In this document: in pieces, positions 42,460 through 59,242 of the stretch
Position numbering within the stretch: position 1 is the stretch's first letter
Layout of the letters: every line of letters begins with the position of its first letter
From: Corynebacterium pseudogenitalium
GTDB lineage: Bacteria > Actinomycetota > Actinomycetes > Mycobacteriales > Mycobacteriaceae
Direction: 5' to 3'
Assembly: GCF_024453815.1 (NCBI RefSeq)
Contig: NZ_CP072934.1
Span: 1,550,001-1,614,000, forward strand
DNA length: 64,000 bases
Translations under genes and position numbers: made by a program
Notes under the pieces: generated by a model
Databases searched by the model: none
Told to the model about the DNA's origin: nothing
Seen by the model: the letters and a program-made list of their open reading frames with translations, nothing else

Positions 42460-43260
42460 ATGACAGCTCCACGCGATCCGTTCTTCCCTGCCGACAAATC
42501 CATTCGGGCCTCAGCCGCGCCTATTGATGTGCGCGAGCTGGGGCTCGTTGATTATGAGGAAGCCTGGCACCTCCAGGCTGAGCTGGCCAAGCAGCGTGCG
42601 TCGGACGAGATCCCGGACACGGTGTTGGTGCTGCAGCACCCCTCGGTGTTTACCGCGGGCAAGCGAACCCAGCCGGAGGACTTGCCGGATCCGTCGTACC
42701 CGGTCTCGGTCGTGGACGTTGATCGCGGAGGACGCATCACGTGGCACGGCGAGGGCCAGCTTGTCCTCTACCCCATCATCAAACTTGCCCAACCGGTAGA
42801 CGTCGTGGACTACGTGCGCCGCCTGGAGGAGGCGATCATCGAGACGGTGCGCAAGGCGGGGGTACATGCCGCCGGGCGTATCGACGGCCGCTCCGGCGTC
42901 TGGGTGCCAAAAACCGTCGACGCGGCGGATAGCTCGGCGTCGCACCGCGATAGGAAGATCGCGGCGCTGGGTATCCGCATCACCCGCGGAGTGACCATGC
43001 ATGGGCTCGCGCTGAACTGCGACAACACCTTGGAGCACTACGGCCACATCGTTGCGTGCGGCATCGACGACGCCGACGTGACCACGATGAGCCTGGAGCT
43101 CGGCCGCGACGTCACACCTGAGGAGATGACCGCTCCGCTGCTCGACGCCCTCAAGCGCGCCCTTGCAGGCGAGCTCGTGGTGGCCGACCACAGCTTTGGT
43201 TCGGCACCGGATCCGACGAAGGGGCTCAAACGTCGAGATGTAAGGCGAGCCTCCCATTAA
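42460..43260 (+). CDS. lipB: octanoyl-[ACP]:protein N-octanoyltransferase LipB
   Basis: Moves octanoate from acyl carrier protein to lipoyl domains (GcvH, E2). Motifs: [18 protein letters not shown], Lys in [10 protein letters not shown] and the catalytic Cys in [11 protein letters not shown]. Length about 266 residues. The frame also has a TTG at 42451, but ATG 42460 (MTAPRD) is chosen. Its place directly after gcvH and before lipA links lipoate synthesis to its acceptors. Confidence 0.94.
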
Positions 43261-43299
43261 ACCTCGACTTTGGAGGGGCTGTCCGTTACGGTGGACGGC

Positions 43300-44346
43300 G
43301 TGACTATTGCACCAGAAGGACGCAAACTACTTCGCGTAGAAAAACGCAACGCCCAGACCCCTATCGAGTCGAAACCGCGTTGGATCCGCAACGCGGTCAA
43401 GATCGGCCCTGAGTACGAGGACATGAAAAAGAAGGTGAAGGGCGCGTCCCTTCACACCGTGTGCCAGGAGGCCGGCTGCCCCAACATTCACGAGTGCTGG
43501 GAGTCGCGCGAGGCGACATTCCTGATCGGTGGCGCGAACTGCTCTCGTCGCTGTGACTTCTGCCAGATCAACTCGGCGAAGCCCGAGCCGCTCGACGTCA
43601 ACGAGCCACAGCGTGTGGCGGAGTCAGTTCGCGAGATGAACCTGAACTACTCCACCATCACCGGTGTGACCCGCGACGACCTCGAGGATGAGGGCGCGTG
43701 GCTGTATGCGGAGGTTGTGCGCAAGATTCACGAGCTCAACCCGCATACTGGCGTCGAAAATCTCACCCCGGACTTTTCCGGCAAGCCGGATCTGCTCCAG
43801 GAGGTCTTTGAAGCTCGTCCGGAGGTCTTCGCGCACAACGTGGAGACGGTCCCGCGCATCTTTAAGCGCATCCGCCCGGCGTTCCGCTACGACCGCTCTC
43901 TGGACGTCATCCGCCAGGCGCGCGACTTCGGTTTGATCACCAAGTCCAACCTGATCCTGGGCATGGGTGAGACCCAGGAAGAGGTCTTGCAGGCGCTGCA
44001 AGACCTTGTTGACGCCGGCACCGACATCATCACGATCACCCAGTACCTGCGCCCCGGCCCGATGTACCACCCGATCGACCGTTGGGTAAAGCCCGAAGAG
44101 TTCATCGAGTACCGCGACGCGGCCTACGAGATGGGCTTCGGCGCCGTCATGTCGGGTCCACTGGTGCGCTCCTCATACCGCGCGGGCAAGCTCTACGTCG
44201 AGGCGATGGAGCACCGCGGCCTGGAGTTGCCGGAAAACCTGCGCCACCTGGCGGAAACCTCGAAGGGCGACACTGCCCAGGAAGCCTCGACGCTCCTGGA
44301 GAAGTACGGTGCTTCGAAGGATCACCCGGTAGCAACACGTTCCTAA
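43300..44346 (+). CDS. lipA: lipoyl synthase LipA (radical SAM)
   Basis: Inserts two sulfurs into octanoyl-lipoyl domains using two 4Fe-4S clusters. The auxiliary cluster cysteines are in [12 protein letters not shown] (about 50-61) and the radical SAM CxxxCxxC is CSRRCDFC (81-88). The C-terminal Ser needed by the auxiliary cluster appears in SGPLVRSSY. Upstream in-frame codons to 43270 are open, but GTG 43300 ([16 protein letters not shown]) aligns with known corynebacterial LipA. Confidence 0.95.
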
Positions 44347-44397
44347 CCCGCTTTGGCCACTTTGGTCCGGCCATGTTCGTGACATAGAGTTGACGGC

Positions 44398-45186
44398 ATG
44401 GCTCAGTCGAAGGATAAGGCAGCCCTGAAGGCTGCGAAGAAGCAGGAGCGCGCCGCGAAGCGCGCAAAGGGAAAGCAGACACGTAGCCAGATTTGGCAGG
44501 CGTTTCAGATTCAGCGCAAGCGGGATAAGAAGCTCATCCCGATTATGCTGGCCTGCCTGCTTGGCATGGGTCTGCTTTTCTTCTTGATCGGCCTCATTTG
44601 GGGCGGCCAGTGGTACATGCTGGCGCTCGGTTTGGCATTCGGTACCGTGCTGGCGATGTGGATGTTCACCCGCCGCTTGGAGCGCTCGATGTACGACGAG
44701 GTCGGTGACACCCCGGGCGTTGCTGGTTGGACGTTGGAGAACCTGCGCAACACCATCGGCATGGTGTGGATCACCAAGACCGGCGTGCAGGCCAACACCC
44801 ATATGGATACCGTGCACCGCGTGATTGGCCTACCAGGCGTCATCCTGGTCGGTGAGGGCAACGAGAACCGCCTGCGCACCCTGATGAAGAAGGAGTCCCG
44901 CCGCGTGGACCGCCTACTGGCAGGCGTGCCGATCCACGAGGTGTACGTGGGCGAAGGCGAAGGCCAGGTTGCAGTACGTGACCTGCAGAAGCACTTGATG
45001 AAGCTGCCACGCCACTACCGCAAGGATGACGTCTACTCCATGAGCGCGAAGCTCGAGGCCATGGACGCTCGTACGCAGCCTGGCCAGATGCCTGGTCTGC
45101 CTGGCGGCCCGCTGCCGAAGCAGGCCCAGAACATGGCGGGTATGAACCGCCGTATGCGCCGAATGCAGCAGCGTCAAGGCAAGTAA
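44398..45186 (+). CDS. DUF4191 domain membrane protein
   Basis: 262 residues: a very basic N-terminus (KAAKKQERAAKRAKGKQ), two transmembrane helices (about 50-70 and 75-95), then a soluble domain ending with a Met/Arg/Gln-rich tail (MNRRMRRMQQRQGK). This is the actinobacterial DUF4191 family, always found after lipA in corynebacteria and mycobacteria. The function is unknown. It starts 51 bp after lipA and ends 2 bp before the ThrE-like gene. Confidence 0.88.
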   Translation: MAQSKDKAALKAAKKQERAAKRAKGKQTRSQIWQAFQIQRKRDKKLIPIMLACLLGMGLLFFLIGLIWGGQWYMLALGLAFGTVLAMWMFTRRLERSMYDEVGDTPGVAGWTLENLRNTIGMVWITKTGVQANTHMDTVHRVIGLPGVILVGEGNENRLRTLMKKESRRVDRLLAGVPIHEVYVGEGEGQVAVRDLQKHLMKLPRHYRKDDVYSMSAKLEAMDARTQPGQMPGLPGGPLPKQAQNMAGMNRRMRRMQQRQGK

Positions 45187-45188
45187 GT

Positions 45189-46454
45189 ATGTCTTCCTTC
45201 GACATGGGCGTCGAGGCCAGCACCGCGCTGCGCCTCGGCGCTCTTTTGTTGTCCGCGGGTGCTCCCGGCTACCGCGTCACACGGGCCGTGAAGCGTTGTG
45301 CCCGCGCGATGCACTTCGACGACGCCGACGTGGTCGTCGGCTTCGACACGATCACGTGCACTGTCCACCGCGGTGATAATTTCCGCACGCTCGTGGCTGA
45401 TCTTCCGCTGCCAGGGGTGAACGCGTCGCGCATCGAGGCGCTCGAGAATCTGACCAAGCACGAGATGCACCGCTACACCACCGCGGAAGAAATCAACGCC
45501 GCCATCGACGAGATTGAGGCAATCCCTACCCCTCGTTGGGGTCCGCTGACCTCCAGCTGCGCGGCTGGCCTTGCATGTGGCGGCTTCGCGGTGCTGAACC
45601 ACTTTTCCTACTTCACCGCGCTGCTCGTGATTATTGCGGCTGGTGTGGGCCAGTACGTGCGGCTGCGCTTGGCGCGTCAACACCTCCTGCAGTTGGGTGT
45701 GGTAATGGCTGCGGCGCTCGTCTCGACGCTGCTGTTCTTGGCGCTCGCGTGGGCGCTTCCCCACTCCGACTTTGAGCTCTCCGCGGGCTTCGTCCCCGCT
45801 ATTTTGTACCTGGTGCCGGGCTTTCCCCTGTTCGTTTCTTTGATGGATCTCTCCCGCTTCGACTTCACCTCGGGGCTGCCGAGGCTCTTCTTCGCGCTCG
45901 AAGTGGTCCTCACCATGATGCTGACGGTTGCGGTCATCGCGATGGTCACCGATGCGCCCGCCCCCAGTACGGTCAGCGCAACCCCGGATCCTGCGTTTTA
46001 CGGGGCTGCGGCGCTCGCCAGCTTCGTCTCCGTGGGTGGGTTCGCCATTTTGTTTAATGCCTCACGCAGGATGACACTTTTGGCAGCCACGCTCGGCACT
46101 GTCGCCAATGTGTTGCGTCTCATGCTTGTCGACGCCCACGTGGAATACTTCCTCGCCTGCCTGCTGGGGACCCTTGTGATCGGCATTCTTGGGTCCTGGC
46201 TGGGCCAGCACTTTCGGGTGCCGCGCACCACGGTGACCATCCCCGCAGCCGTGGTCATGATCCCCGGCCCCACCATTTACGCGGCGCTGCACCAGATCAC
46301 GAACGGCAATATCTCCGCGGCAATCGACTCGACTACCGCCGTCGTGCTCACGGTATTGTTCCTCTCTGGAGGCCTGACGGTGGCCCGTCTGCTCACTGAC
46401 AAGAACTGGGCGTTCCAGCGCACCGTGGAATTCCGCCCGTTGGAGGAACCCTAG
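45189..46454 (+). CDS. threonine/serine exporter (ThrE/DUF1212) family protein
   Basis: A 421-residue protein with a soluble N-terminal domain (ALRLGALLLSAGAPGYRVTRAVKRCA) followed by about ten hydrophobic helices, the fused ThrE/YjjP-YjjB arrangement. In C. glutamicum ThrE exports threonine and serine; whether this protein has the same substrate is not known. It is closely linked to the DUF4191 gene, and its end overlaps the convergent RDD gene by 4 bp. Confidence 0.85.
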   Translation: MSSFDMGVEASTALRLGALLLSAGAPGYRVTRAVKRCARAMHFDDADVVVGFDTITCTVHRGDNFRTLVADLPLPGVNASRIEALENLTKHEMHRYTTAEEINAAIDEIEAIPTPRWGPLTSSCAAGLACGGFAVLNHFSYFTALLVIIAAGVGQYVRLRLARQHLLQLGVVMAAALVSTLLFLALAWALPHSDFELSAGFVPAILYLVPGFPLFVSLMDLSRFDFTSGLPRLFFALEVVLTMMLTVAVIAMVTDAPAPSTVSATPDPAFYGAAALASFVSVGGFAILFNASRRMTLLAATLGTVANVLRLMLVDAHVEYFLACLLGTLVIGILGSWLGQHFRVPRTTVTIPAAVVMIPGPTIYAALHQITNGNISAAIDSTTAVVLTVLFLSGGLTVARLLTDKNWAFQRTVEFRPLEEP

Positions 46455-46927
46455 CTGCGGATCACGGTCGTGTTGGTCGCACGATCGTGCATGCCGCGGC
46501 CGTCGGCGTCGACAAGCGCTGCGGGCAGAATGAACGCAGTGAGCAGCGTGCGCACTGCCGCGCGCCACAGCCCGACGGGCTCTTCCGCGTCGACGCGGGC
46601 CACCCCCATCCCGAGGATCGCCATGCCCGGCGTGCGTGCAAATAGCCAACCGCAAATGATGCCCAACACGATCCACAACAGATACGTCAACGTCGACGTG
46701 CCACCGAAAACGGTGGTGTTGGCATGAATGATCGCTGCAGCCGCCCAGGCAATTGCCCAGTCGATCGCGACGCCTCCCATGCGTCGCGCCACCGACGCCT
46801 GCGCGCCCGCGCCCTCCTTCGGCAGCCCAAGAAACTGCCCCGGGTAGTCAGGGATCGCATCATCGCCTTTGAACTGGCCGGGAAGCTCCGGGCCGTCGAG
46901 CCATCGTTTTCCTTGGGGTGCAGACAT
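46451..46927 (-). CDS. RDD family membrane protein
   Basis: A 158-residue RDD protein: VARRMGGVAIDWAIAWAAAAI carries the Arg and Asp residues of the family in the first of about three membrane helices. The N-terminal 45 residues are polar with PGQFLGLPKEGAG. It is divergent from glnA, as in other corynebacteria. No function is established; some RDD proteins act as ion antiporters. Confidence 0.87.
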   Translation of the reverse strand: MSAPQGKRWLDGPELPGQFKGDDAIPDYPGQFLGLPKEGAGAQASVARRMGGVAIDWAIAWAAAAIIHANTTVFGGTSTLTYLLWIVLGIICGWLFARTPGMAILGMGVARVDAEEPVGLWRAAVRTLLTAFILPAALVDADGRGMHDRATNTTVIRS

Positions 46928-46961
46928 GCGACATAGCCTATCCTCTTTTCCCGAAAAGCTG

Positions 46962-46989
46962 TTACAGAGCGGGAGCTACACGCTAGAAT
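46962..46989 (+). promoter_or_regulatory. putative glnA promoter
   Basis: TTACAG (46962-46967) and TAGAAT (46984-46989) with a 16-bp spacer, about 40 bp before the glnA GTG. The elements resemble the SigA consensus of corynebacteria. No clear AmtR operator could be recognised by eye. Confidence 0.45.
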
Positions 46990-47028
46990 TGTGCGAAGTT
47001 CCCAACGCCGTCCGAAGGAGAAAAGGTC

Positions 47029-48465
47029 GTGTCTTTCGAAACTATCGAAGACGTAAAGAAGTTCATTCAGGACGAGAACGTGGAGTTTGTCGACGTCCGG
47101 TTTACCGACGTCCCCGGCATCGAGCACCACTTCTCTATCCCTGCCTCCATGTTTGACGAAACCGTCATGGAAGAAGGCCTCGCCTTCGACGGCTCATCGA
47201 TTCGTGGCTTTACCACCATCGAAGAGTCCGACATGACGCTCATGCCGGATCTCGCCACCGCGAAGCTGGACCAGTTCCGCGCAGCGAAGACCCTGAACGT
47301 GAAGTTCTTCGTCAACGACCCATTCACCCTCGAAGCGTTCTCCCGCGACCCGCGCAACGTTGCGCGCAAGGCGGAGCAGTACCTGGCTTCCACCGGCATC
47401 GCCGATACCTGTAGCTTTGGCGCCGAGGCCGAGTTCTACCTCTTCGACTCCATCCGATACGAGGTCGAAGGCCACCGCGCGTTCTACGAGATTGACGCCG
47501 AAGAAGGCTGGTGGAATCGTGGCAAGGAAACAGATGCAGTCGGCGGCCCGAACCTTGGCTACCACAACCGCGTCAAGGGCGGCTACTTCCCCGTCCCACC
47601 ACACGACAAGACCGTCGACGTGCGCGACGCCATGGTCAAGAACCTGCGCGAATCCGGCTTCGAAATCGAACGCTTCCACCGCGAGGTAGGCAACGGCGGC
47701 CAGCAGGAGATCAACTACCGCTTCAACACCCTGCTGCACGCGGCTGACGACCTGCAGGACTTCAAATACATCGTCAAGAACACCGCCACCCAGTACGGCA
47801 AGACGGCCACCTTTATGCCGAAGCCCCTGGCCGGTGACAACGGTTCCGGAATGCACGCCCACCAGTCCCTCTGGAAGGACGGCAAGCCACTGTTCTACGA
47901 CGAGAACGGCTACGGCGGGCTCTCCAACATCGCCCGCTGGTACATCGGCGGCATCCTTGAGCACGCCGGCGCTGTCCTTGCGTTTACCAACCCGACGCTG
48001 AACTCCTACCACCGCCTGGTGCCAGGTTTCGAGGCCCCAATCAACCTGGTGTACTCCCAGCGCAACCGCTCTGCCGCGATCCGCATCCCGATCACTGGCA
48101 CCAACCCGAAGGCGAAGCGCATCGAGTTCCGCGCACCGGACCCATCAGGCAACCCGTACCTCGGCTTCGCTGCCATGATGATGGCAGGCCTCGACGGTGT
48201 GAAGAATCGCATCGAGCCACACGCTCCGGTGGACAAGGACCTCTACGAGCTGCCACCGGAGGAAGCCAAGGACATCCCGCAGGCGCCGACTTCGCTCGAG
48301 GCGTCGCTCCAGGCGCTGCAGGACGACTACGAATTCCTCACCGAAGGCGACGTCTTCACCGAAGACCTCATCGACACGTACGTGAAGCTGAAGTACGACA
48401 GTGAGATCACCCCGGCACGCCTGCGCCCGACGCCGCTGGAGTTTGAGCTGTACTTTGACTGCTAG
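47029..48465 (+). CDS. glnA: glutamine synthetase type I GlnA
   Basis: Forms glutamine from glutamate, ammonia and ATP as a dodecamer; the main ammonium-assimilating enzyme. The 478-residue protein has FDGSSIRGF, the ATP-binding segment [11 protein letters not shown], and the adenylylation site Tyr in [10 protein letters not shown] (about residue 406), so it is probably controlled by GlnE. GAAGGAG lies upstream of GTG 47029. It is followed by a strong hairpin, then the accessory region. Confidence 0.97.
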
Positions 48466-48480
48466 ATTCTGAGGGACTTT

Positions 48481-48518
48481 TGCGTAACTGACCTGGTGTT
48501 ATTTGCGAAACTGACCCG
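48481..48518 (+). repeat. two direct repeats TGCG(T/A)AACTGACC at the left edge of the accessory region
   Basis: TGCGTAACTGACCTG at 48481 and TGCGAAACTGACCCG at 48504, 23 bp apart, lie 16 bp after the glnA stop. They could be recombinase/transposase binding sites or an old insertion sequence end. A partial match, ATAACTGACCT, occurs at 52962-52972 on the far side of the recombinase block. Confidence 0.5.
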
Positions 48519-48524
48519 AAAACC

Positions 48525-48562
48525 AAAACCCCCGGTATCCAACACGGAAACCGGGGGTTTTC
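48525..48562. terminator. terminator between glnA and the transposase-like gene
   Basis: A perfect 11-bp stem AAAACCCCCGG/CCGGGGGTTTT with a 15-nt loop and T/A runs on both sides. It can terminate glnA and also the convergent accessory operon. Confidence 0.88.
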
Positions 48563-48663
48563 TTGTGTTCTGGCCGTGGAAACGGGGAGGTTTTTGGGAC
48601 GAACCGGGCTGTTTTCAGTACCTAGCCAGCACTTCGAGACCGTGGCCTTAGTGGGCGACGGTC

Positions 48664-50436
48664 TTAGGCAACTTCTCGGCCTGGATTCGGCGGCGCGTTA
48701 GGTCCGGCAATGGAGATAAAGTCCACTGCCTGTTTCTTCCACGGTTTGCCACCGCCCGGATTTGTCGGTGGCGGTGTGACAAGCCCGTCACGAAGCCGCT
48801 TGAGGTAGTTGATGTAAAGACGAACGTTCGACGCCACCACCGCCAGCACAGTACGCAGCGCCACGCCTGTAAAACCACGCATGGCCTTCTTGGTTCTATC
48901 CCCTGTGCCAAGGTGCGACTCGCCCTTGATAAACGCGTTCGCCGCCTCATTCCTTGCACGGTAGACCTTGTACAGTGCCCTCCAATCCTCGGTATACGCG
49001 GCAGGTCCTTGCTGGTGGTACTTGTTAAAGCGCGTGGCGTCGGGGTCGTTGACACCTACGGAGACAGACTTTTGACGGCACACATCACCGCATGACTTTT
49101 GGCTTGGTACCTGGCGTACCGACAGTGGTAGCGCCGGGTTTCCGGCAGCACCTTTTCGTGCCGCGTTCTTTTTCGCCTGCTCGTCGTTTTTACGCAGCGG
49201 GCACGCCACCTTGCCAGATAATGCGGGACACGAAAACCGCACGGTGCCGTCTTTTTCGGCTTCCTTAATGTCGAGTTGCAACCGCTTGCGCTGCTCTAGT
49301 GCTTGCGCAAACTGTTCCTCTGTAATGTGTCCTTTATCGAACTCGCCTTTTGGGTCGAGTAGGTCCTTGCGCTTGGCAATCGCCGGGCAATACCCAGTGC
49401 CGTCCACCAGTGTCACGCCACGATATGCAGCGGACACACCCTTGGTCTCCGCCCTGTTTGGTACTTCACCGACCAATTTCCAGCCCTTCTCCCGCATAGG
49501 AATCTGGTAATGCTCGGCCTTCGACAGCGGGTAATACGCCATGTCGGTGACTGCATAGCGCCGGGGCAGGTTCGTCCTTTCCAAATGGGCCAGCGCCACA
49601 CGAGCGTTGTAGCCCGGCTTGTAGCCCGGCCTATCCAACGACAGACCGACCACAGGCGCTGGCAGGGATTTGCCGAACTCCCCACCGACAGCAACAACGG
49701 CGGTGGCCTCAAACGCCCAGGCAGACTTCTTGATGTTCTCAACACCGCTAACACCATCGCCCTTGTGGTCGCCATTGCGGATATACCACCCTGCTTCCGG
49801 CGTAGACGGTTCACGGCGAGAACGAGCGGTGCGCCCGTAGCCGGTGACTTCAATTGGTGTGCCGTCAATGGCAATATCCCCGTCCCAGCCGTCAAACATG
49901 TTCTCGTTGAGCACCTTCGCACTCGCCAGTGCCAGCATGGACATGAAAATCGAGGTACGTGCGTGGCGCGACGCCACAAACTCGGGGTCCCGGCTGGCCT
50001 CAAGTTCGGCGTATTCTTCCTTGCTCAACCGGCGCCAGTGTGGTGTTTCCGGGAACGGGTCAATCACGTCGCGCACGCGGTATCGCAGGGTCCGCCAGAG
50101 CCGGTCGTACCACGTGGTCGCAGTGCGAGAGTCCCACTTGCGCAGGTCAATGTCGAGGGCATTCCACGCCTTGCCGTCGAGACGGTAGCGCAGAATCTCG
50201 GAGGACTCGCGGACGAACATCGGTTTACCCAGCAGTGCCGGGAGAATGAACAGAATCAACGCGGCGCGCACCGGAATGTGCGCGGGTCGGCCACCCAGGC
50301 CACGCCCGGCGCGGTCCGCGCTATCCCATTCGGCTAGTTGCTCAACCACACCGGAGGTGTCCACCACGTCGGTTGCAATTTTCAGCATATCGAGCGAAAT
50401 GGTGCCCTCGTAGGTTGCCGGGTTGTGCGTTGTCAT
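48664..50436 (-). CDS. DDE-transposase-like protein with cysteine-rich insertion
   Basis: About 590 residues. Candidate catalytic acids are Asp in AIDGTPIEV (about residue 191), Asp in VTDMAYYP (about 298) and Glu in RARNEAANAF (about 497), the last followed by a helix running into KKAMRGFTGVALRTVLAVVASNVR, as in many DDE transposases. Between the second Asp and the Glu is an insertion with paired Cys (CPALSGKVACPL and CGDVC) that could bind zinc. The family was not recognised by name. GGGAGG precedes ATG 50436, making it better than the upstream GTG. The gene is 48 bp after recombinase gene 1 and ends the operon. Confidence 0.65.
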   Translation of the reverse strand: MTTHNPATYEGTISLDMLKIATDVVDTSGVVEQLAEWDSADRAGRGLGGRPAHIPVRAALILFILPALLGKPMFVRESSEILRYRLDGKAWNALDIDLRKWDSRTATTWYDRLWRTLRYRVRDVIDPFPETPHWRRLSKEEYAELEASRDPEFVASRHARTSIFMSMLALASAKVLNENMFDGWDGDIAIDGTPIEVTGYGRTARSRREPSTPEAGWYIRNGDHKGDGVSGVENIKKSAWAFEATAVVAVGGEFGKSLPAPVVGLSLDRPGYKPGYNARVALAHLERTNLPRRYAVTDMAYYPLSKAEHYQIPMREKGWKLVGEVPNRAETKGVSAAYRGVTLVDGTGYCPAIAKRKDLLDPKGEFDKGHITEEQFAQALEQRKRLQLDIKEAEKDGTVRFSCPALSGKVACPLRKNDEQAKKNAARKGAAGNPALPLSVRQVPSQKSCGDVCRQKSVSVGVNDPDATRFNKYHQQGPAAYTEDWRALYKVYRARNEAANAFIKGESHLGTGDRTKKAMRGFTGVALRTVLAVVASNVRLYINYLKRLRDGLVTPPPTNPGGGKPWKKQAVDFISIAGPNAPPNPGREVA

Positions 50437-50484
50437 GGTGTTCACCTCCCTCGGTTGTGTGGTTCGTCCCTGGTCTGTGTTCGG

Positions 50485-51447
50485 TTATTCGGCGATGTGG
50501 AGGCTTGGGTACGGCGTTCGCCGCAGCAGCGCACGCGCCTGCTCGGCTGGCACCTCGGCGGTGTGGTACCACCGCGCGTAGTGCTGTAGGTCCGTCAGTC
50601 CCGCTGCCTGGCAGACCACGGCCTCGGGCACGTTGTGGTGGAGGTGGCCGACAATCCACGTTGTGCGCAGCCGCCGCGTATCCAGTGCCACCGCGTGCGG
50701 TTTGCCAATACGGCCAAGAATCGCGGCCACGGACTCCGTGGTGGCGTGCGCGCGGTTCGGCCAGAGCACCAGACCGTGCACGCCGACGTTGCCCGCCGCG
50801 TCGCGCACGACCTGTTCCCACTCGGCTAACACCGGTACCTCACGCGGCGCGGTGTCGCGGTAGCCGTGGGCGGTGATGGTGACACCGCCGTCGCTGTGGA
50901 CGGTGACGTCGCGCCCGCACAGCCGTGCCATTTCACCGGCGCGAAGCCCGGCACCCAGGCCGAGTGCGAGCGTGAGCGTGGCACCGGCGCGCTGGTAGTC
51001 AGTGGACAACCCCTGTGCCCATTGAGCCAGGAAGTGCTGTTCCTGCTCGGTATAGGGCGCGTCTGGTGCTTTGTAGCCGTACTTGGTGGTGCGGTCGTCA
51101 AACGGCCAGTTCGGGTTGAGTTCGCGGCCCAGTCGGTACAGCAGGGACCGGCGCACGCCCTTGGCCCTGTCGGTCAATCCGGTCTGCGAGACGACGTATT
51201 CCACCACCAGCGGGTCGAACACGTCCGCGTAGGTCAGTTCCCCACCGACCTGGTTGAGTGTCACGTGTGCTGCCTGTGCCACCGCCAGCATGGTTAATCG
51301 CAGCGTGGCCCGGTCCGGTTCGGTTGGTATCACGTGTTCGAGGGTCACGGACTGCGTGAAGTCGCGGACCTGTACCCAGTCGTCCTTGTTCATCGAGCGC
51401 GGTGTGTAGTGCAGCGCCGCGTCGCGTAGTTCGTCCCTAGTTCCCAT
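50485..51447 (-). CDS. tyrosine recombinase-like protein, catalytic residues largely present
   Basis: 320 residues, with the C-terminal half resembling a tyrosine recombinase. Arg I is in GLGAGLRAGE (Arg169), Arg II in TRRLRTTW (Arg261) with Arg in place of the first His of the H-x-L-R box, and a likely nucleophile Tyr294 in ARWYH after the AGLTDLQ turn, where the family normally has LGHS. So it may still be active. The frame is open further upstream to 51765, overlapping the next gene, but GGGGAG 8 nt before ATG 51447 gives the sensible start. It is second in the operon. Confidence 0.7.
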   Translation of the reverse strand: MGTRDELRDAALHYTPRSMNKDDWVQVRDFTQSVTLEHVIPTEPDRATLRLTMLAVAQAAHVTLNQVGGELTYADVFDPLVVEYVVSQTGLTDRAKGVRRSLLYRLGRELNPNWPFDDRTTKYGYKAPDAPYTEQEQHFLAQWAQGLSTDYQRAGATLTLALGLGAGLRAGEMARLCGRDVTVHSDGGVTITAHGYRDTAPREVPVLAEWEQVVRDAAGNVGVHGLVLWPNRAHATTESVAAILGRIGKPHAVALDTRRLRTTWIVGHLHHNVPEAVVCQAAGLTDLQHYARWYHTAEVPAEQARALLRRTPYPSLHIAE

Positions 51448-51473
51448 GTTGGTCACTCCCCTTGCCCTGCAAC

Positions 51474-51489
51474 GTTTCTTAAAAGAAAC
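51474..51489. repeat. 16-bp inverted repeat GTTTCTT-AA-AAGAAAC between the two recombinase genes
   Basis: Perfect 7-bp arms around a 2-bp centre in the 110-bp gap between the recombinase genes. The sequence is AT-rich in an otherwise GC-rich block. It could be an operator for an HTH protein or a core recombination site. Another repeat of identical geometry lies at 52933. Confidence 0.5.
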
Positions 51490-51557
51490 ACTACGCGGCA
51501 ACCCCGACGCCGGACGACCTACTCGAACACCGATTAGAACATGCCTGCTCAACGGGG

Positions 51558-52535
51558 TCACTTGCCAACCTCCCCTGTGTCGGAGACCACGCGAAGGTGC
51601 CCATAACCGGGCCGCGTGTGGCCCTCCAACGGCGGGACGACAATGCCGGAGTAGTCGGCGTCGAATCGCAAGGCCACAATCGCGGCCCGGCAAATCTGCG
51701 CGTAGTTCGAGCGCGGTTCCAACTCGGCAACCTCCACCCCATCGCGCAACTGCATGACCACCCACGTGTCAATGAGCCTTGTCGGTTTCAGGTCGAACCC
51801 GAGTGGCTGCATGTTCGTAAATGGAAACGCCTGGCTGGCACCATTGACCCCACGCTCGTACAGACTCGCCACGGCCGCACGTGCTTCGGGACGAACCGGG
51901 ACCTGCTCGCCGTCCACGCGCACGAACTCGCCGTGCGGGTCGAGGTCGCTGGTCCTAAGTGCTCTACGCTGCGAGGTCCGCAAGCCCGCGCCGATGGTCA
52001 GTGCCACCGCAAACGTGGCCCGCTCGCGGCTCTGTATCGTCGGTGCGACTTCCAACCAGTCACAGACCTTGCGCAACTCGTCAGGCGAAAGCGGCCGCGA
52101 CTCTGGCACCGTCTTGTGGACCTGAAACGGGCGTGTTCGCGGCAATTCCGACAACTCGCGTGCTGCCATGCGCGGGTCCGGCGATGTCCACGCCCAACAC
52201 AACCGAAGCAGGGAGCGCTCGTGCCGCGACGCTGGGTGTTCTCGCACTTGTTCGGCCACCCACCAGTCCACGAGGTCGTGGCCAAACAGGTCGTGTACGT
52301 CGCCCTCATTGACACTGCCCCAGACCTGCTTCACGCTGGTCAAATAGCGCGCAAGCAAACCACCGACGGTTTGCAACCGCTTGCGGGTATCAATCCCCCG
52401 TACGGGTCCGTCATGCCCGAAGGCCACACCACACAGCAGCACGTGCTGTATCACCTCGGCCACATCATCGGTGACCCTGTTGCGCCGTGGCCGGTAACGA
52501 CGGGCCTGTTGTTCCAGGGTTCCTAGTTCTGACAT
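51558..52535 (-). CDS. degenerate tyrosine recombinase-like protein
   Basis: 325 residues, paralogous in fold to its neighbour. The catalytic domain starts at PLSPDELRKV (about 148), with GAGLRTSQRRAL carrying Arg I (about 186). The box II equivalent reads TRLIDTWVV, with Ile where Arg II is expected, and no Tyr lies at the expected nucleophile position, so it is probably catalytically dead. It may serve as a partner subunit or directionality factor for the active-looking recombinase. First gene of the minus-strand operon, divergent from a small HTH gene 57 bp away. Confidence 0.65.
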   Translation of the reverse strand: MSELGTLEQQARRYRPRRNRVTDDVAEVIQHVLLCGVAFGHDGPVRGIDTRKRLQTVGGLLARYLTSVKQVWGSVNEGDVHDLFGHDLVDWWVAEQVREHPASRHERSLLRLCWAWTSPDPRMAARELSELPRTRPFQVHKTVPESRPLSPDELRKVCDWLEVAPTIQSRERATFAVALTIGAGLRTSQRRALRTSDLDPHGEFVRVDGEQVPVRPEARAAVASLYERGVNGASQAFPFTNMQPLGFDLKPTRLIDTWVVMQLRDGVEVAELEPRSNYAQICRAAIVALRFDADYSGIVVPPLEGHTRPGYGHLRVVSDTGEVGK

Positions 52536-52592
52536 ACTCGCACCCGATTCGGCGTGTTGGCAGTCGTTTTCGTGTCCCCCGAGGCATAATCA

Positions 52593-52895
52593 GTGGCCGT
52601 GCCAGAGTCACCGAAGTCACCCCGCGCCCTGTACCCGGCGTGGCCGCATGACGAGCACGTGACCAACCCCGCCCACGAGGTCGTACAGCGCTTTGCCCGC
52701 GCTGTGGAACGGCTGACACTACAGACCTCGACAAATGATGTGGCACGCAAGTGCAACGTGCCGGTAGCCACCGTATCGAGCGTGGTGCGCGGCGCTGCGT
52801 GGCCGAGCACGCTCACGCTTGCCAAGTTGGAGCACGGCACCGGCCACCACCTGTGGCGGGTTCGGGAGAAGAAACTTCGCATACCCCCACAGTGA
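52593..52895 (+). CDS. small HTH protein, first of two paralogues
   Basis: 100 residues. N-terminal motif RALYPAWPHD, then helices, and a helix-turn-helix TNDVARKCNVPVATVSSVVRG, then WPSTLTLAKLEHGTGHHLW. The same layout recurs in the gene at 53480. Divergent from the recombinase operon with 57 bp between starts, so it is a good candidate for its repressor. Start GTG 52593; GTG 52599 is an alternative. Confidence 0.65.
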   Translation: MAVPESPKSPRALYPAWPHDEHVTNPAHEVVQRFARAVERLTLQTSTNDVARKCNVPVATVSSVVRGAAWPSTLTLAKLEHGTGHHLWRVREKKLRIPPQ

Positions 52896-52932
52896 CCGCC
52901 GAGCCGCGAGATAACTAGCACACACGACCACC

Positions 52933-52948
52933 TTCCGGCGAGCCGGAA
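52933..52948. repeat. 16-bp inverted repeat TTCCGGC-GA-GCCGGAA
   Basis: Perfect 7-bp arms around a 2-bp centre, 38 bp after the HTH gene stop and upstream of the VOC gene. There is no T-run. It has the same geometry as the repeat at 51474 but a different sequence. Confidence 0.45.
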
Positions 52949-53016
52949 AGCATTGTGCTACATAACTGACCTATCCTGGGTTTCACCCACGGCCCCGACA
53001 CTCAAATAAGGAAAAC

Positions 53017-53376
53017 ATGAACCGCGAAACCGTCTTTATCATCTACGCATCAGACATAGACACCTCCGTCGGTTTCTATAGCGACCTACTCGAACTAAAG
53101 ACCGACTTCGTCTCTCCGCGTTATGTGACGTTCTCATTGGGCGATGGTGTGTCGCTCGCGTTGTGGACCGGCAACGCAGACGCCCTGGAGGGAGCGGTAG
53201 GACGCACATCGGAAGTGTGCATGAACGTTCCGGCCGCCCAGGTATCCTCCGTGTTCGAGCGATGGAAAGAGCAGGGAGTCACCATTGTCCGCGAACCGTA
53301 CGAGGAAGTTTTCGGTACTACATTCGTAGCGACCGACCCGGACGGCAATCTCCTCCGAGTAGCACCAATCGACTAG
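53017..53376 (+). CDS. VOC (glyoxalase/bleomycin-resistance fold) family protein
   Basis: 119 residues with two beta-alpha-beta-beta-beta halves: start MNRETVFIIYASDIDTSVGF, and end DPDGNLLRVAPI, the usual last strand with the DPDGN turn. Metal-binding or antibiotic-binding members share this fold; a substrate cannot be inferred. AAGGAAAAC precedes ATG 53017, and a terminator follows. It sits between the two HTH paralogues and its composition is less GC-biased than theirs. Confidence 0.82.
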   Translation: MNRETVFIIYASDIDTSVGFYSDLLELKTDFVSPRYVTFSLGDGVSLALWTGNADALEGAVGRTSEVCMNVPAAQVSSVFERWKEQGVTIVREPYEEVFGTTFVATDPDGNLLRVAPID

Positions 53377-53385
53377 AGCAACGCA

Positions 53386-53412
53386 GCCCCGCCCAACGCA
53401 GCGGGGTTTTCT
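53386..53412 (+). terminator. terminator after the VOC gene
   Basis: Stem GCCCCGC/GCGGGG with an 8-nt loop, followed by TTTTCT. Confidence 0.8.
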
Positions 53413-53479
53413 CTTGCCCACAGCCACGCCACAACCGCCACCCCGTTTCTTTCGGGACACGAGCGGTAGTGTTGGGGAC

Positions 53480-53845
53480 ATGACGGAAACCAAGCCAACT
53501 CACGGGCGCGCGGCACGGCAAAAACCACGCGCGCTGTACCCCGCATGGCCCGAGGACCCCGCCGCCATTGGTGCGCACGCGCTGGTGCAGGTGTTCGTGC
53601 GCAACCTGGCCGCGTACGTGAACGAACAAGCAGGCCACGGCGTATCACAGGCCGAACTGGCTCGCCGCGCCGACGTAGCCAAAGCCACCTTGAGCAAGGT
53701 ACTACGCGGCGAAGTGTGGCCCGATTCTGTCACCGTCGCCCGCTTCGAGCACCTGGCTGGCCGACGGCTGTGGAACGGGCCGATTTCCGTCACGTCCCCC
53801 GAACTGTCCTCCCCCGCCCGCTCCGGCGACACCGATACCGACTAA
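53480..53845 (+). CDS. small HTH protein, second paralogue, heading the restriction-modification operon
   Basis: 121 residues from ATG 53480. It shares RALYPAWPED with the gene at 52593 and has a clear HTH, VSQAELARRADVAKATLSKVLRGEVWP, then TVARFEHLAGRRLW and a polar tail. It ends 15 bp before mod and is likely in the same transcript, so it may act as a controller of the restriction genes. The start lacks a good ribosome site; a leaderless message is possible. The frame is open to 53414. Confidence 0.68.
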   Translation: MTETKPTHGRAARQKPRALYPAWPEDPAAIGAHALVQVFVRNLAAYVNEQAGHGVSQAELARRADVAKATLSKVLRGEVWPDSVTVARFEHLAGRRLWNGPISVTSPELSSPARSGDTDTD

Positions 53846-53860
53846 GCGAGAACAACCACA

Positions 53861-56143
53861 ATGTCACGACTCAACGACCTGATTACGCAGGCCAAGAAGG
53901 AAAACCCGCGCCTTGGCGCTGCCCTAGAGCAAGAGTTCCACGCGCGGACCTCGCGCACCTTTGGGCTGGTGTTTGAGCAGTACCTACCCGAAGAAGTCGA
54001 GTTACCGGGCCGGCCAGTGCGACGCGGCGACAACGTGCATGTACTCCCGCCGCGCGGGACGGGCGACAAGCCGGACCCACGCATTTGGCGCGTTGCCGGT
54101 ATCACCCGCACCGACGACGAACGTGTTGCCCGCCTGGTCGAAGCCCACCCGGAGGTGGACGAGCAGCCGGAGACGCAGGACGCTGTGCCAGTTGTGGACC
54201 TGGTTGTCACCGCCGAACACGACGATGTGATTTACCCCGGCCTGGTGCAGACCGGCGAGGTTATTGGCAGTGAGGACTCCGGCGCGCCGTTCCACAGCGT
54301 GATTAACGCGGAGAACTACCACGCGCTGAAAATGCTGACCTACACGCACTACCACTCCATCGACTGCATTTACATTGACCCGCCGTACAACACCGGGAAA
54401 GACGACTGGATTTACAGTGACCGGTACGTTGACGCAGACGACGTATTCAGGCACTCCAAGTGGCTCGCGTTCATGGAGCGGCGACTGCGGGTGGCACGGA
54501 ACCTACTTAGCCCGACCGGAATCATCATCGTGGCTATTGGAAACGAGCAGCAACACCGTCTGCGAATGTTGATGGACGATGTGTTTGGGGAGTCGAACTT
54601 CATCTCCAACGTCACTTGGAACGGTGGGCGGAAGAACGATTCCCGGTTCGTCTCCAATGGCGAGGACTACATGCTCATTTACGCCAACGACAAGACTGCG
54701 TGGATTAAAGAGGGCGTGAAAGTCAAGGACGCTCCCGACGTGAGCAGTCTTGAAACAGCAGCGGATATTGCGGCCAATGGTGCCCGCTGGCGCGCCCCGA
54801 AAGAGGGATACGAGGCCGTGCTTGAGAAGGGCGCCGAGGTCTGGCGCGAGGCACGCCTTACTGCGGTTGAGCAACAGTTCGGCTCCGATAGCACCGAGTT
54901 CTCACGCCTAGCGAGCGCGGGAGACGACACCGACTTCGACACTATGTATGCGTCGATTAACGAGGCGTTGCCCGCCGACGACCAGAAGCAACTGTTTCGA
55001 CGCGCGGAACTGGACGGAGAACAGCGTATGCGTGCGTTCTACCGGCAGTTCCCCACTGACGACCGCATACGAAAGACGTTCGGAAGGTACAACTATTTCC
55101 TGCCCGACGGAACCCTTTGCTGCGATTCCGATATTTCGTGGCCTAAATCTGGCGGTCCCCGATACGACGTGTACCACCCAGATACAGGAGGTGCCGTCCC
55201 CATTCCCGACCTTGGCTGGCGTTTCCCCACCCCGGAGCGTATGCGGGAAGTCATTAACGCGGGACAGGTTATCTTCCGTAAAGACCACAGCAGGCCGATT
55301 AGGTTGAAGAACCCTTTGGAACGTTCCAGCGGAATCGTCCCAATGTCCACGTTTGACCGGCAGCGAACGCACGGCTCGCGGCACCTGCACTGGAACAACA
55401 AGGGCGAGGTGCGCGGTGTGTTCGCGGAGAACCGTTTTCCCAACCCGAAGGACGTCACTGTGCTTGCGGATTGGATTGAGGTCTGTACCCCGAAAGACGG
55501 CGTGGTCTTGGACTTCTTCGGCGGCTCCGGTTCCACACTGGAAGCCGTCATGTTGATAAACGAGCGGTCGCACTCTAAGCGCAGCGCGATTGTGGTGACG
55601 AACAACGAGGTAGGAAGTAAGAAGGCTGCGGCGCTGTCCAAGCAAGGTATTCGCAAGGGCGACCCCGAGTGGGAGCAGTGGGGCGTTTGCGAGTACGTGA
55701 CGAAACCACGTATCAGGACCGTGGTGACCGGCAAGCGCGAGGACGGAAGCCAGTTTTCCGACGGCTTCGACGCCAACGCGCGGTTCTTCACGCTGACCTA
55801 CGAGCCGCCGACGCGCGTGCGGCACAACCGCGCGTTCAAAGAGATTGCGCCGATGTTGTGGCTGCGTGCGGGCCAGACTGGTCGGATTATCGACCAGATA
55901 CCGCAGCGGGGCTGGGACCTCACCGACGCTTACGGTGTGATTGAGAACGTGGCTGCGTCGGCGGAGTTCGTCGCCGCTGTGCAGCAGCGAGAAACGGTGC
56001 GCGTGGTCTATATCGTGACCAATGACGACCTAGTATTCGAGTCTATGGCGCGCGAACTGGCGGGCACCGGAGCAGAACTGGTTCGTCTTTACTCGACCTA
56101 TCTCAACAACTTCGCTTTCCAGCAGACACGGGAGAACCACTAA
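53861..56143 (+). CDS. mod: type III restriction-modification system, DNA adenine methyltransferase (Mod)
   Basis: 760 residues. Methyltransferase motif IV DPPYNTGKDDW (about 173-183) precedes the SAM motif I DFFGGSGSTLEAV (about 551-563), the beta-class order typical of type III Mod. The segment between is the target-recognition part. The N-terminal 120 residues (VRRGDNVHVLPPRGTG, DLVVTAEHDDVIYPGLV) are shared with other Mod proteins. The product methylates N6 of adenine on one strand of an asymmetric site that cannot be deduced. The stop overlaps the res ATG by one base (TAATG), giving coupled expression. Confidence 0.9.
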   Translation: MSRLNDLITQAKKENPRLGAALEQEFHARTSRTFGLVFEQYLPEEVELPGRPVRRGDNVHVLPPRGTGDKPDPRIWRVAGITRTDDERVARLVEAHPEVDEQPETQDAVPVVDLVVTAEHDDVIYPGLVQTGEVIGSEDSGAPFHSVINAENYHALKMLTYTHYHSIDCIYIDPPYNTGKDDWIYSDRYVDADDVFRHSKWLAFMERRLRVARNLLSPTGIIIVAIGNEQQHRLRMLMDDVFGESNFISNVTWNGGRKNDSRFVSNGEDYMLIYANDKTAWIKEGVKVKDAPDVSSLETAADIAANGARWRAPKEGYEAVLEKGAEVWREARLTAVEQQFGSDSTEFSRLASAGDDTDFDTMYASINEALPADDQKQLFRRAELDGEQRMRAFYRQFPTDDRIRKTFGRYNYFLPDGTLCCDSDISWPKSGGPRYDVYHPDTGGAVPIPDLGWRFPTPERMREVINAGQVIFRKDHSRPIRLKNPLERSSGIVPMSTFDRQRTHGSRHLHWNNKGEVRGVFAENRFPNPKDVTVLADWIEVCTPKDGVVLDFFGGSGSTLEAVMLINERSHSKRSAIVVTNNEVGSKKAAALSKQGIRKGDPEWEQWGVCEYVTKPRIRTVVTGKREDGSQFSDGFDANARFFTLTYEPPTRVRHNRAFKEIAPMLWLRAGQTGRIIDQIPQRGWDLTDAYGVIENVAASAEFVAAVQQRETVRVVYIVTNDDLVFESMARELAGTGAELVRLYSTYLNNFAFQQTRENH

Positions 56144-58743
56144 TGAAGTACACGCTCATGCCGTACCAGGAAACGGCGTCCGACACCATTATGGAGCGCC
56201 TTGACGAGGTGGCCGAGTCACGCGACAAAGGCCGCCCCGCCGTGTTCGCACTGTCTGCCCCGACGGGCGCCGGCAAGACCGTGATTGCGACCAGCGTGTT
56301 CGAGCGCATTTTGATTCCCAGCGACGACCGCGTGGAAGACGAAAACGCCGTCATTTTGTGGCTCTCCGACAACCCGGACTTGAACGAGCAGTCGCGCTAC
56401 CGTATCGAAACCGCGTCGAGTGACCTTGCCACGCGAACGGTGACGTTGGACAGTAGTTTCAACCTACCCACCTTCGAGCGCGGGTGCATTTACTTTTTGA
56501 ACACGCAGAAGTTGGGCAAGGGAACCAAACTCACCGGCGGCCGCAGGGATACACAGGACCCGCTGTTTGCGCGCGGGGATACCACGCAGGTGACGTTCTG
56601 GGACACGCTGCGCAATACGATTCATTCGGACCAGCACAACCTGATTCTGGTCGTCGATGAAGCCCACCGCGGCGCGGGTAAGCAGCGCAAAGACAAGGCC
56701 ACGATTCTACGCCGTCTGATTGAAGGCCACACCCCAGACGGCCACGCGGAGCCGGTGCCACCGATTCCGACGGTGGTGGGTATTTCGGCAACCCCCGGCG
56801 CATTCAAGACGATGATTGGCGGCATGTCGGGCAGTCGCCTGGTGCTCGACGACGTGGAGGTGCCGGTGGCCGACGTGCAGGAGTCCGGCCTGATTAAAGA
56901 CATTGTCGAGTTACGTATCCCAGGCGAAGAAGGCAAGTCGTTTGACGGTGTGTTCGTCCAGGACGCAGCGCGTATCCTGGCTGAAACCACGGCCCGGTGG
57001 GACGCTTACCACGAGGACCAGGGCGGCGACGGCGAGCGCGTCGTACCGCTCATGGTCGTGCAGATGAAGGACAAGGCCACGGACGAGGACATGTACCAGG
57101 CCATTTCCGCTATCCGTAAAGGCTGGCCGCAGATTCCGCACGACTGTTTTGCCAACGTCTACGGCGAGCACGACAACATCATGGCCGGCGATACGCTAGT
57201 GCCCTACATCGAACCGCAGCGCGTGCAGGAACGCACCGAGATTCGCGTCCTGTTCGCCAAGACCGCTATCTCGACCGGCTGGGACTGCCCACGCGCCGAA
57301 GTCATGGTGTCGTACCGCACGGCACGCGATGAAGCCCACATCACGCAGGTCATTGGACGCATGGTGCGCTCCCCGCTCGCGCGCCGTATTGAGGGCAACG
57401 ACCTGTTGAACTCGGTGCTGTGTGTCCTGCCGCAGTTTGACCGCCCGGCGGCCGAGGACGCGGTGAAGAGAATCAACCAGGGCAAGCAGGACGATACAGG
57501 CGACGGTGGCGATGTGCCTGTGGTCGATATTGTGATTGACACCGAGACGCTTACTCCCGTGGAAAACGAGAAGGTCTGGGACGCCTTTTGTGCGCTGCCA
57601 CGCATGGTTGCACCAACGCGCTCGGATAAGCCCATTTCCATGCTGCTCAACTTAGGCATTGAGTTGCAGCGCGACGGGCTTATGGAAAACGGCATGAAAC
57701 AGGCCGAGGACGAACTTATCGCCATTGTCAACGGCTACCTCACCCGCTACGAAAAACAGGTTGCCGACAAGCGCGAAGACATTTTGAAAGTCCAAACCCA
57801 GCGCCTTGTGTTCAACTATGCGGACCGTGACCTGACAACGGACGAGTCGGGAGACGAACTGTACGCCGACCGGCGCGTGATTGAGGAGGCCTACCGCGCG
57901 GCAATTCCGGTGTTCACCCGCGCGCTGGCCGATATGTGGGTGGACGCACGCACTGACGAACTCGTGGACAAGGACCCGGACGCGGACGAGGAGGAATTAA
58001 TCGACGAGGCCCGGCTGCAACTGGCGGCACTGGCCGGTGTCGCGGGTATTGCGCAGTCGGTGTCGGACAACGCGGACGACGTGGCGGGTGACTGGCTTGA
58101 CACCTACAACGCCGAGTTGGCCGTGCTGCCAGATTCGCGCAAGGCCGCGTACCAGCCGCTGCGTGAAATGGCGATTCACCCAAGCCACGAGCCGTTGATC
58201 AAGCCCGCGAACCGGACGGTGCCACAAGGCACTGCGGACAAGGACAACAACCTGGTCCCGTTCACCCGTTACGTCGGCCACCTGCTTACCGCAAGCGACG
58301 GTACGGCCCCGTTCAACCTCAACGAGTGGGAGGCCCACGTCGTTTCCACCGAGTCCGGCCGCAGCGGTGCTGTTGGTTGGTACCGCAACCCGTCGCGCTC
58401 CAGTGCGGAGGCACTGACTGCGGTGTACCTCGACGACACTGCTAACCGGTGGCGCAACATGCAGCCGGACTTCATCTTCTTCCGCGAAGTGGGTGATACG
58501 GTTCGTCCCTCAATTATCGACCCGCACGGGCACCACTTAGGCGACGCGCTCGACAAACTGCGCGCACTGTCCAACTACGCAGCCGAGTTCGGTGACCAGT
58601 TCGTCCAGATTCTTGCGGTCTCCGGCAAGGACGTTGACTCGCTGCGGTCGGTGGACCTCAAGAACCCCGACGTTCGCGCGGTGATTGACAAGGCCGAGAC
58701 CGCCGCCGAGGTCTATGAGCGGGAAGGCCGTGCGTACAAGTAA
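56143..58743 (+). CDS. res: type III restriction system helicase/endonuclease subunit (Res), unusual nuclease motif
   Basis: 866 residues. Superfamily 2 helicase: Walker A TGAGKT (41-46), DEAH (172-175), SATPG (about 214) and motif VI QVIGRMVRSP (about 404-413). A C-terminal domain has PDF (about 774), then IIDPHGHHLGDALDK about 15 residues later, where PD-(D/E)xK nucleases usually show (D/E)xK; here it is Asp-Pro-His. It is therefore uncertain whether it cuts DNA like EcoP1I-type Res. It overlaps mod by one base. A terminator follows 116 bp after the stop. Confidence 0.86.
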   Translation: MKYTLMPYQETASDTIMERLDEVAESRDKGRPAVFALSAPTGAGKTVIATSVFERILIPSDDRVEDENAVILWLSDNPDLNEQSRYRIETASSDLATRTVTLDSSFNLPTFERGCIYFLNTQKLGKGTKLTGGRRDTQDPLFARGDTTQVTFWDTLRNTIHSDQHNLILVVDEAHRGAGKQRKDKATILRRLIEGHTPDGHAEPVPPIPTVVGISATPGAFKTMIGGMSGSRLVLDDVEVPVADVQESGLIKDIVELRIPGEEGKSFDGVFVQDAARILAETTARWDAYHEDQGGDGERVVPLMVVQMKDKATDEDMYQAISAIRKGWPQIPHDCFANVYGEHDNIMAGDTLVPYIEPQRVQERTEIRVLFAKTAISTGWDCPRAEVMVSYRTARDEAHITQVIGRMVRSPLARRIEGNDLLNSVLCVLPQFDRPAAEDAVKRINQGKQDDTGDGGDVPVVDIVIDTETLTPVENEKVWDAFCALPRMVAPTRSDKPISMLLNLGIELQRDGLMENGMKQAEDELIAIVNGYLTRYEKQVADKREDILKVQTQRLVFNYADRDLTTDESGDELYADRRVIEEAYRAAIPVFTRALADMWVDARTDELVDKDPDADEEELIDEARLQLAALAGVAGIAQSVSDNADDVAGDWLDTYNAELAVLPDSRKAAYQPLREMAIHPSHEPLIKPANRTVPQGTADKDNNLVPFTRYVGHLLTASDGTAPFNLNEWEAHVVSTESGRSGAVGWYRNPSRSSAEALTAVYLDDTANRWRNMQPDFIFFREVGDTVRPSIIDPHGHHLGDALDKLRALSNYAAEFGDQFVQILAVSGKDVDSLRSVDLKNPDVRAVIDKAETAAEVYEREGRAYK

Positions 58744-58858
58744 CGCGCGGGAAAACCGGGCGGGGTCCGGTGGGAACGGGTTGTGAACCAACGTCACAGC
58801 GGCTGACCACGCGGTTTCCCAAACGTTCCTCTGAGCCCAGGTTCGTCCTGGCCTCTTG

Positions 58859-58895
58859 CCCACGGTTTCCGTCACGGTTGCCGTGGGTTTTTCTT
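58859..58895 (+). terminator. terminator after res
   Basis: Stem CCCACGG/CCGTGGG with a 15-nt loop, followed by TTTTTCTTTG. Confidence 0.78.
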
Positions 58896-59242
58896 TGTCT
58901 TCTTCCTGTGCAGCGGACTTTTGCACCACATTCCCTCACGCGAAATCGGCGACCTGCGCATTTGCCGACGTCCCCTTCCCAAACCCAGGAATCTGGTGCG
59001 GGCCGCTTCGTGCCAGTGCCAAAAGACACAACACGTAACATCTAGCCCTTTTGTGACCTGCAGGAACGTGGAGGTCGAAATTCAAACTTGCGCCCCCTGT
59101 CACTACGCTTCAGGCCCGGACACCAAATTCCCCATTTCCCCCAGAAAGACTTGAGTATTTCCCCAGGTGGCCGAAGTCCGCGGACGGATTGTGGTGCACA
59201 GCTCACTCGCAAGAACCAGCGACATCCCCCGCTATACATACC
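58896..59242. other. intergenic stretch between the restriction operon and the ATPase gene
   Basis: No coding frame with support was seen. Several 60-90-codon frames overlap on both strands without motifs. The composition shifts toward C/A-rich sequence near the repeat array at 59243. Confidence 0.5.

Follow-up and report, generated by a model that had tools for sequence, protein, structure and literature searches.

The 64,000-nucleotide stretch of Corynebacterium pseudogenitalium DNA analysed here (contig NZ_CP072934.1, positions 1,550,001 to 1,614,000, hereafter the window) carries, just after the gene glnA, a transposon of 10,357 bp with three genes designated A, B and C. A and B encode tyrosine-recombinase-like (TR) proteins and C encodes a putative DDE-type transposase. 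An earlier note, made from the sequence alone, had singled out these genes as one functional unit, perhaps a composite transposition module combining two chemistries. The features on which the analysis turns are the following (G and L numbers are working labels for genomes, elements and loci; ORF, open reading frame).

47029-48465, plus strand: glnA, a host gene outside the element, whose 3' end is the attachment site (ORF; relatives)
48468-48472, no strand: left target-site duplication (TSD), TCTGA (empty site in the same-species genome G500)
48473-58829, no strand: whole transposon, 10,357 bp (empty site in G500; comparison with G545 and other elements)
48473-48516, plus strand: left end, with terminal GGGACTTTTGCGTAAC and direct repeats TTTGCGtAACTGACC (48479-48493) and TTTGCGaAACTGACC (48502-48516), 23 bp apart (sequence)
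48664-50445, minus strand: gene C, putative DDE-type transposase whose insertion contains four cysteines (C353, C406, C415, C456)
50485-51447, minus strand: gene B, tyrosine-recombinase fold, probably catalytically inactive (AlphaFold2 model, structure matches, active-site columns)
51558-52535, minus strand: gene A, tyrosine-recombinase-like, a more degenerate paralogue of B (same iterative hidden Markov model family as B; alignment)
58745-58829, minus strand: right end, reading inward GGAACGTTTGGGAAACC... (80 bp common with L031; outer limit from the empty site)
58830-58834, no strand: right TSD, TCTGA, a copy of 48468-48472 (empty site)

Mapping of the ORFs confirmed that A, B and C lie head to tail on the minus strand, with a helix-turn-helix (HTH) gene (52593-52895) divergent from them, as the earlier note had described. 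The three genes encode 325, 320 and 593 amino acids, respectively, B being counted from its ATG (the mechanical ORF list puts its start at an upstream GTG). The A-B gap is 110 bp, as given before; the B-C gap is 39 bp, and the 48 bp given for it before applies only if C is counted from an inner ATG. No Pfam or NCBIfam family scored above cut-off for A, B or C. No second copy was found in the 2.39-Mb genome with C and B as queries (E 0.001), and neither a megablast search of plasmids with the trio nor a tblastn search of phages with C returned a match.

The limits of the element were obtained by comparing filled and empty sites, a check that the earlier note had proposed. In G500, a genome of the same species with no match to C, the sequence corresponding to 42515-48473 (97.7% identity) is joined to that corresponding to 58830-60452 (96.5%), which yielded the ends and the TCTGA duplication. 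The two window segments overlap by 6 bp at this joint, and a duplication of 5 bp fits better once G545 and other elements are compared. Since the limits are 48473 and 58829, the element holds not only the trio, which does occupy 48664-52535 as first delimited, but also two HTH genes, a glyoxalase-like gene and a type III restriction-modification (R-M) pair. Its ends are imperfect inverted repeats. Similar paired repeats were seen by eye in the left ends of relatives, and 80 bp of the right end are common to the window and L031 despite the differing R-M genes before it; AACTGACC by itself is not rarer than chance within the window.

Fourteen elements of 8.4-19.5 kb showed both ends, related to one another, together with matching 5-bp duplications. 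Terminal inverted repeats and a target duplication of fixed length, the marks of a DDE transposon, are thus present in these 14 elements and are borne out by empty sites. A search with right-end motifs, which is partly circular because the motifs came in part from duplication hits, gave good matches in 15 of the 23 elements tried, 14 of them with a TSD. No right-end match was found by this search in G473, and no right end with a TSD was settled in G429, G441, G575, G424, G488, G007, G425 or G416, the last two having been searched without extra upstream sequence. In G407, G399 and G541, the element boundary is uncertain by a single base. A second empty site belongs to a tRNA-Leu copy, whose joined flank matches G476 as 1-71 plus 67-350 and G359 as 25-350 in one piece at 84%. 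In G586 (joined from L131 and L100), a second left end borders immediately on the first element's outer duplication, a tandem arrangement that is expected if one exact site is used twice. A left-end-like sequence was also seen just beyond the right end of G444b. Next to several tRNA sites (the right flanks of G274, G476, G478 and G399), and at the G359 empty site, there is a hairpin-like repeat around GACATCGTTCCTACGGTGTC; it also occurs elsewhere in three of four genomes scanned and is absent from the window genome.

The unit proposed by the earlier note proved to be conserved elsewhere. Of 401 genomes sampled from the family, 28 had a match to C, as had 60 of 242 from the genus; with a C profile, 18 of 396 sampled from the phylum had one, the window genome being counted each time. 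A scan of genome contigs gave a single relative, L031. All 52 loci mapped were picked because they matched C, with two loci coming from some few genomes, and 41 were classed as intact (C of at least 550 amino acids). A TR-like ORF was present somewhere in the fetched stretch at 46 of the 52 loci and at 40 of the 41 intact ones, and in 39 of the 41 (maps read by eye; exceptions L089 and L091) a TR-like gene lies directly upstream of C on the same strand. These counts indicate that the arrangement of the trio is not due to chance. The simplest form has one TR gene, in many cases running a few bases into the beginning of C. TR-like ORFs were also found in 12 of 19 phylum loci, for which only about 1.5 kb was fetched per side, and Streptomyces plasmid copies have the order HTH-TR-C, their TR and C genes both matching the family profiles and both annotated as 'hypothetical protein'. 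The relatives have no joint name in public annotation. That lack of a name and the type III R-M neighbours would suit a hot spot at which unrelated genes, a separate integrase and insertion sequence remnants, had gathered in a defence island. However, the TR-C order is conserved, common ends and TSDs bracket the whole unit, and the G500 empty site contradicts such an assembly, so that we give this explanation almost no credence.

The left end of the window element lies 7 bp after the stop codon of glnA. Six copies adjoin glnA (window, G545, G425, G431, G541 and G416), with offsets from the stop codon of 7, 7, 7, 7, 8 and 7 bp, respectively, and with spacer sequences that are unrelated. All six occur in one genus and in the same orientation, as would be expected if the position reflected one ancestral insertion inherited vertically. 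However, the core DNA of the window element and that of G545, which comes from a different species, are 96.7% identical, as against 81.8% for glnA; on the glnA side synteny is kept but the sequence has diverged (73% across the 758 bp that lie upstream of glnA), the right flanks are unmatched, and the TSDs differ. Because the core is far closer than glnA, the right flanks do not match and the TSDs are different, these two copies represent, on sequence comparison, independent insertion at one position and not inheritance; the conclusion concerns this pair among the six glnA copies, and vertical inheritance was dropped for it. An empty site within the same species and related elements at the 3' ends of other genes also speak against vertical inheritance as the origin of the glnA position, which is very improbable.

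Insertion at a fixed position after glnA or tRNA genes, the main feature of the element, was not foreseen in the earlier note. A tRNA or transfer-messenger RNA (tmRNA) gene convergent with C was found within 400 nt of the C stop codon at 20 of the 52 loci (18 of the 41 intact), against a background of only 32 tRNA/tmRNA genes in all 916 kb examined. Among the genes used are those for tmRNA and for tRNAs Arg, Leu, Pro, Ser, Met and Gln, and the distance from the gene end to the element was 3-11 bp at the 20 loci. The left end lies 7-8 nt past the encoded CCA in nine of them, 8-11 nt past the modelled tRNA end in seven whose model lacks CCA, and 3-4 nt past the modelled end in four (L039-L042, from other genera, with putative ends). 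Among the new phylum loci (19 in all), a tRNA or tmRNA stood at the site in 9 of 12 scanned. The 23 intact loci with no nearby tRNA comprise 14 from a distant clade, three at glnA (L086, L087, L089), one in an array of clustered regularly interspaced short palindromic repeats (CRISPR; L090), two at the ends of contigs (L036, L103), two in which other sequence separates the element from a more distant tRNA (L091, L102), and L033 (9641-10100), which has a recognisable left end with no adjoining tRNA, glnA or Rfam RNA. A search of L033, L090, L045 and L110 against Rfam returned one distant tRNA only.

Two copies were observed within CRISPR arrays, flanked on either side by repeats. G570 (L090, 2113-10591) lies in an array with a period of 61 bp, which is exactly restored on removing the element and one 5-bp duplication. 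The other (L158, 2226-7747, a plasmid of Streptomyces sp. NBC_00057) adjoins annotated cas6e, cas1e and cas2e; read by hand from its flanks, the duplication is TTGCA and the restored spacer measures 32 bp. The two cases differ in geometry relative to the repeat and are too few for targeting of CRISPR repeats to be claimed.

Where public records give C a name, it is 'hypothetical protein'. It has no significant membership in Pfam or NCBIfam, including no match to a Tn3 transposase profile; DDE_Tnp_1 of Pfam was touched by 2 of 18 members of the C family (best E 0.013), and the best matches among PDB sequences had E values of only 1.8 or worse. Its predicted fold, from a weak model, is RNase H-like with Tn5 as best structural match, and the putative catalytic residues are D194, D301 and E500. 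The RNase H-like fold on which the earlier call of a DDE-type protein with a cysteine insertion depended was therefore found, at the strength of that model. Together, the fold and the D, D, E residues suggest that C is a transposase. In the L033 copy, the second catalytic Asp is replaced by Glu.

A and B matched PHROG integrase profiles (E values of 3e-4 and 6e-5, respectively) and fall into one TR family by iterative hidden Markov model search and alignment. The AlphaFold2 model of B (predicted local distance difference test score, pLDDT, 81) matches the structures of Cre, XerH and Tn1549 Int and has the core-binding and catalytic domains of tyrosine recombinases, in agreement with the earlier reading of both proteins as tyrosine-recombinase-like. 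Neither sequence contains cysteine clusters, and B aligns through the catalytic domain. The residues of active tyrosine recombinases are R, H, R, H/W and Y. In the 35 aligned TR sequences, the arginines are kept (R169 in 33, R261 in 34), whereas the HisII position is Arg in 33 (R258 in window B), the HisIII position is Leu in 28 (L284 in window B), and the tyrosine column has Tyr in 11 and Phe in 22 (Tyr in 23 of 65 in a broader set). The active set is therefore not found across the TR family, and because neither catalytic histidine is present and only 11 of 35 sequences retain the tyrosine, recombinase chemistry has probably been lost from it. The description of B as active-looking in the earlier note does not fit these columns, and the suggested mixture of tyrosine-recombinase and DDE chemistry gives way to what is likely one DDE chemistry with DNA-binding partners. 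What stands of the composite transposition module is an element that transposes, has ends and duplicates its target; two active chemistries were rejected on the eroded active-site columns of the TR family.

TnpI or TnpS/TnpT resolve cointegrates in Tn3-family elements, and B might likewise be an active tyrosine recombinase that resolves cointegrates of a replicative DDE transposase. Window B does keep both arginines and the tyrosine (Y290), and its fold matches those of active enzymes; against this role, the chemistry does not look conserved in the TR family, going by the HisII, HisIII and Tyr columns, and we regard it as improbable.

These results are best accommodated, in our judgement with reasonable confidence, if the three genes form the transposition module of a DDE transposon that is site-specific and needs neither TnsA/B/C nor TniQ, in which dead integrases serve as target selectors. 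C would bind the inverted ends and carry out all cutting and joining, leaving the 5-bp duplications observed; this chemistry is proposed from motifs and fold. A and/or B would read a conserved gene at its 3' end (glnA in the window, tRNA or tmRNA genes in relatives) and would place strand transfer by C a few bases, typically 7-8, past the gene end. The choice of site itself is shown by the positions of the insertions; that A and B make the choice is what we infer. The strategy would resemble that of Tn7 with a TnsD/TnsF-type selector, carried out by unrelated machinery.

A different role for A and B is as architectural end binders that sit on the paired direct repeats and assemble the transpososome, with C or a host factor choosing the target. 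Tyrosine-recombinase proteins normally bind paired repeats, the left ends carry such repeats about 23 bp apart, and many elements have two TR subunits. However, end binding alone does not account for the set positions after tRNA genes and glnA, which are the kind of site that integrases usually aim at; we therefore consider this role rather unlikely.

Several observations count against target selection by dead integrases in a DDE transposon. C itself could read the target. The divergence of the TR proteins does not follow the target: TR1 is the most divergent in the glnA and Arg groups and TR2 in the Pro group, and TR2 proteins of Arg and Leu elements are as similar to each other as are those of two Arg subgroups. 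The offset from the tRNA is not constant, and the distant clade (L044-L049 and L110-L117, 14 intact loci) has TR and C with no tRNA nearby. For 9 of the 23 elements tried, either no right end was found or the one found had no TSD. The model of C is weak (pLDDT 51.7), and a Foldseek search with it gave no match at E 0.001 or better. The residues R169, R261 and Y290 of window B make residual recombinase activity possible. In the distant clade, a neighbouring gene for a 493-amino-acid lipoprotein-like protein was found to be common to five loci.

The remaining genes of the element are two HTH genes and its cargo.

52593-52895, plus strand: divergent HTH gene, probable regulator (HTH_3 just below cut-off; HTH relatives beside other TR-C units)
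53017-53376, plus strand: glyoxalase-like gene, cargo (Pfam Glyoxalase, 2.4e-9)
53414-53845, plus strand: second HTH gene, paralogue of the first (Pfam HTH_3, 9.8e-6)
53861-56143, plus strand: type III R-M methyltransferase gene (mod), cargo (PADLOC MTase_III, 6.8e-152)
56143-58743, plus strand: type III R-M restriction subunit gene (res), cargo (Pfam ResIII, 1.9e-11; PADLOC REase_III, 2.1e-8)

The first HTH protein is 42% identical to the L031 copy of the second, and the divergent gene is probably a repressor of the operon. Of the 14 delimited elements, 10 contain type III mod/res-like genes, in one case just a partial mod, and none was found in the other four (G444a, G274, G407 and G586). 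Different type III R-M pairs accompany near-identical cores in the window (53861-58743) and G545 (locus L031, 2023-6324), which suggests that cargo is exchanged between elements; since the window and G545 share the core and differ in the R-M pair, cargo turnover may be fast. The type III R-M cargo may help the element to persist.

The family was compared with several known systems. Tn7 with TnsD, like the window element, inserts downstream of a conserved gene at a fixed spacing, but the gene and the proteins differ and TnsD does not have a recombinase fold. No TnsC or TniQ was found among the ORFs in 48473-58829 (C, B, A, two HTH genes, the glyoxalase-like gene, mod and res), and a Tn7-like element was therefore rejected; an AAA protein gene at 59308 lies outside the element and follows glnA in the empty-site genome too. 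The integrases of genomic islands also have the integrase fold and use tRNA 3' ends, but they recombine identical cores by tyrosine chemistry without such a TSD, whereas the present family has DDE-type ends and TSDs. The predicted RNase H-like fold of C is shared with the IS4/Tn5-type transposases; C has in addition the cysteine insertion and a TR partner. Tn3-family transposases, found with TnpI or TnpS/TnpT, are about 1000 amino acids long, in contrast to the 593 of C.

The closest parallels are in Faure et al. (2023, PMC10293859). As described there, TnsF is an inactivated tyrosine recombinase, with N-terminal zinc fingers, no catalytic chamber and a truncated catalytic domain, that selects comM for Tn6022, an element requiring TnsA, B, C and TniQ. 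On this description, both are DDE transposons at a conserved gene with an inactivated tyrosine-recombinase-domain protein as selector, a proposed role in the case of A and B; however, the window element has one DDE protein, no TnsC/TniQ and a near full-length TR fold, its family inserts after glnA or tRNA genes and not inside the target gene as Tn6022 does in comM, the zinc fingers reported for TnsF are found in neither A nor B, and B does not show its truncation. The same paper describes Tsy elements as having a recombinase-fold selector and an HTH gene, active tyrosine recombinases, a circular intermediate and no detectable inverted repeats (PMC10293859); a recombinase-fold candidate selector and an HTH gene are also present in the window family, which unlike Tsy has inverted ends and 5-bp TSDs. 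With TnsF as a clear conceptual precedent, the family is classed as a selector-guided DDE transposon with different machinery. No paper that appears to describe this element family was found in a literature search that did not extend to bioRxiv preprints or to the majority of subscription papers.

DDE transposition that is site-specific and directed by genes is familiar chiefly from Tn7 and its multi-protein machinery. We suggest, tentatively, that a large actinobacterial family may independently have converted integrases into guides, devoid of chemistry and re-targetable, for a DDE transposase that stands alone. These guides would read tRNA, tmRNA, perhaps CRISPR repeat DNA and, in one lineage, glnA; the insertion system would be protein-programmed and independent of TnsC, and its selector could be passed from one element to another. 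If this is true, one DDE protein reaching exact sites with one or two dead integrases would be a second, simpler solution, and a compact candidate for programmable DNA insertion. The element family would also help to explain the spread of type III R-M systems in Corynebacterium.

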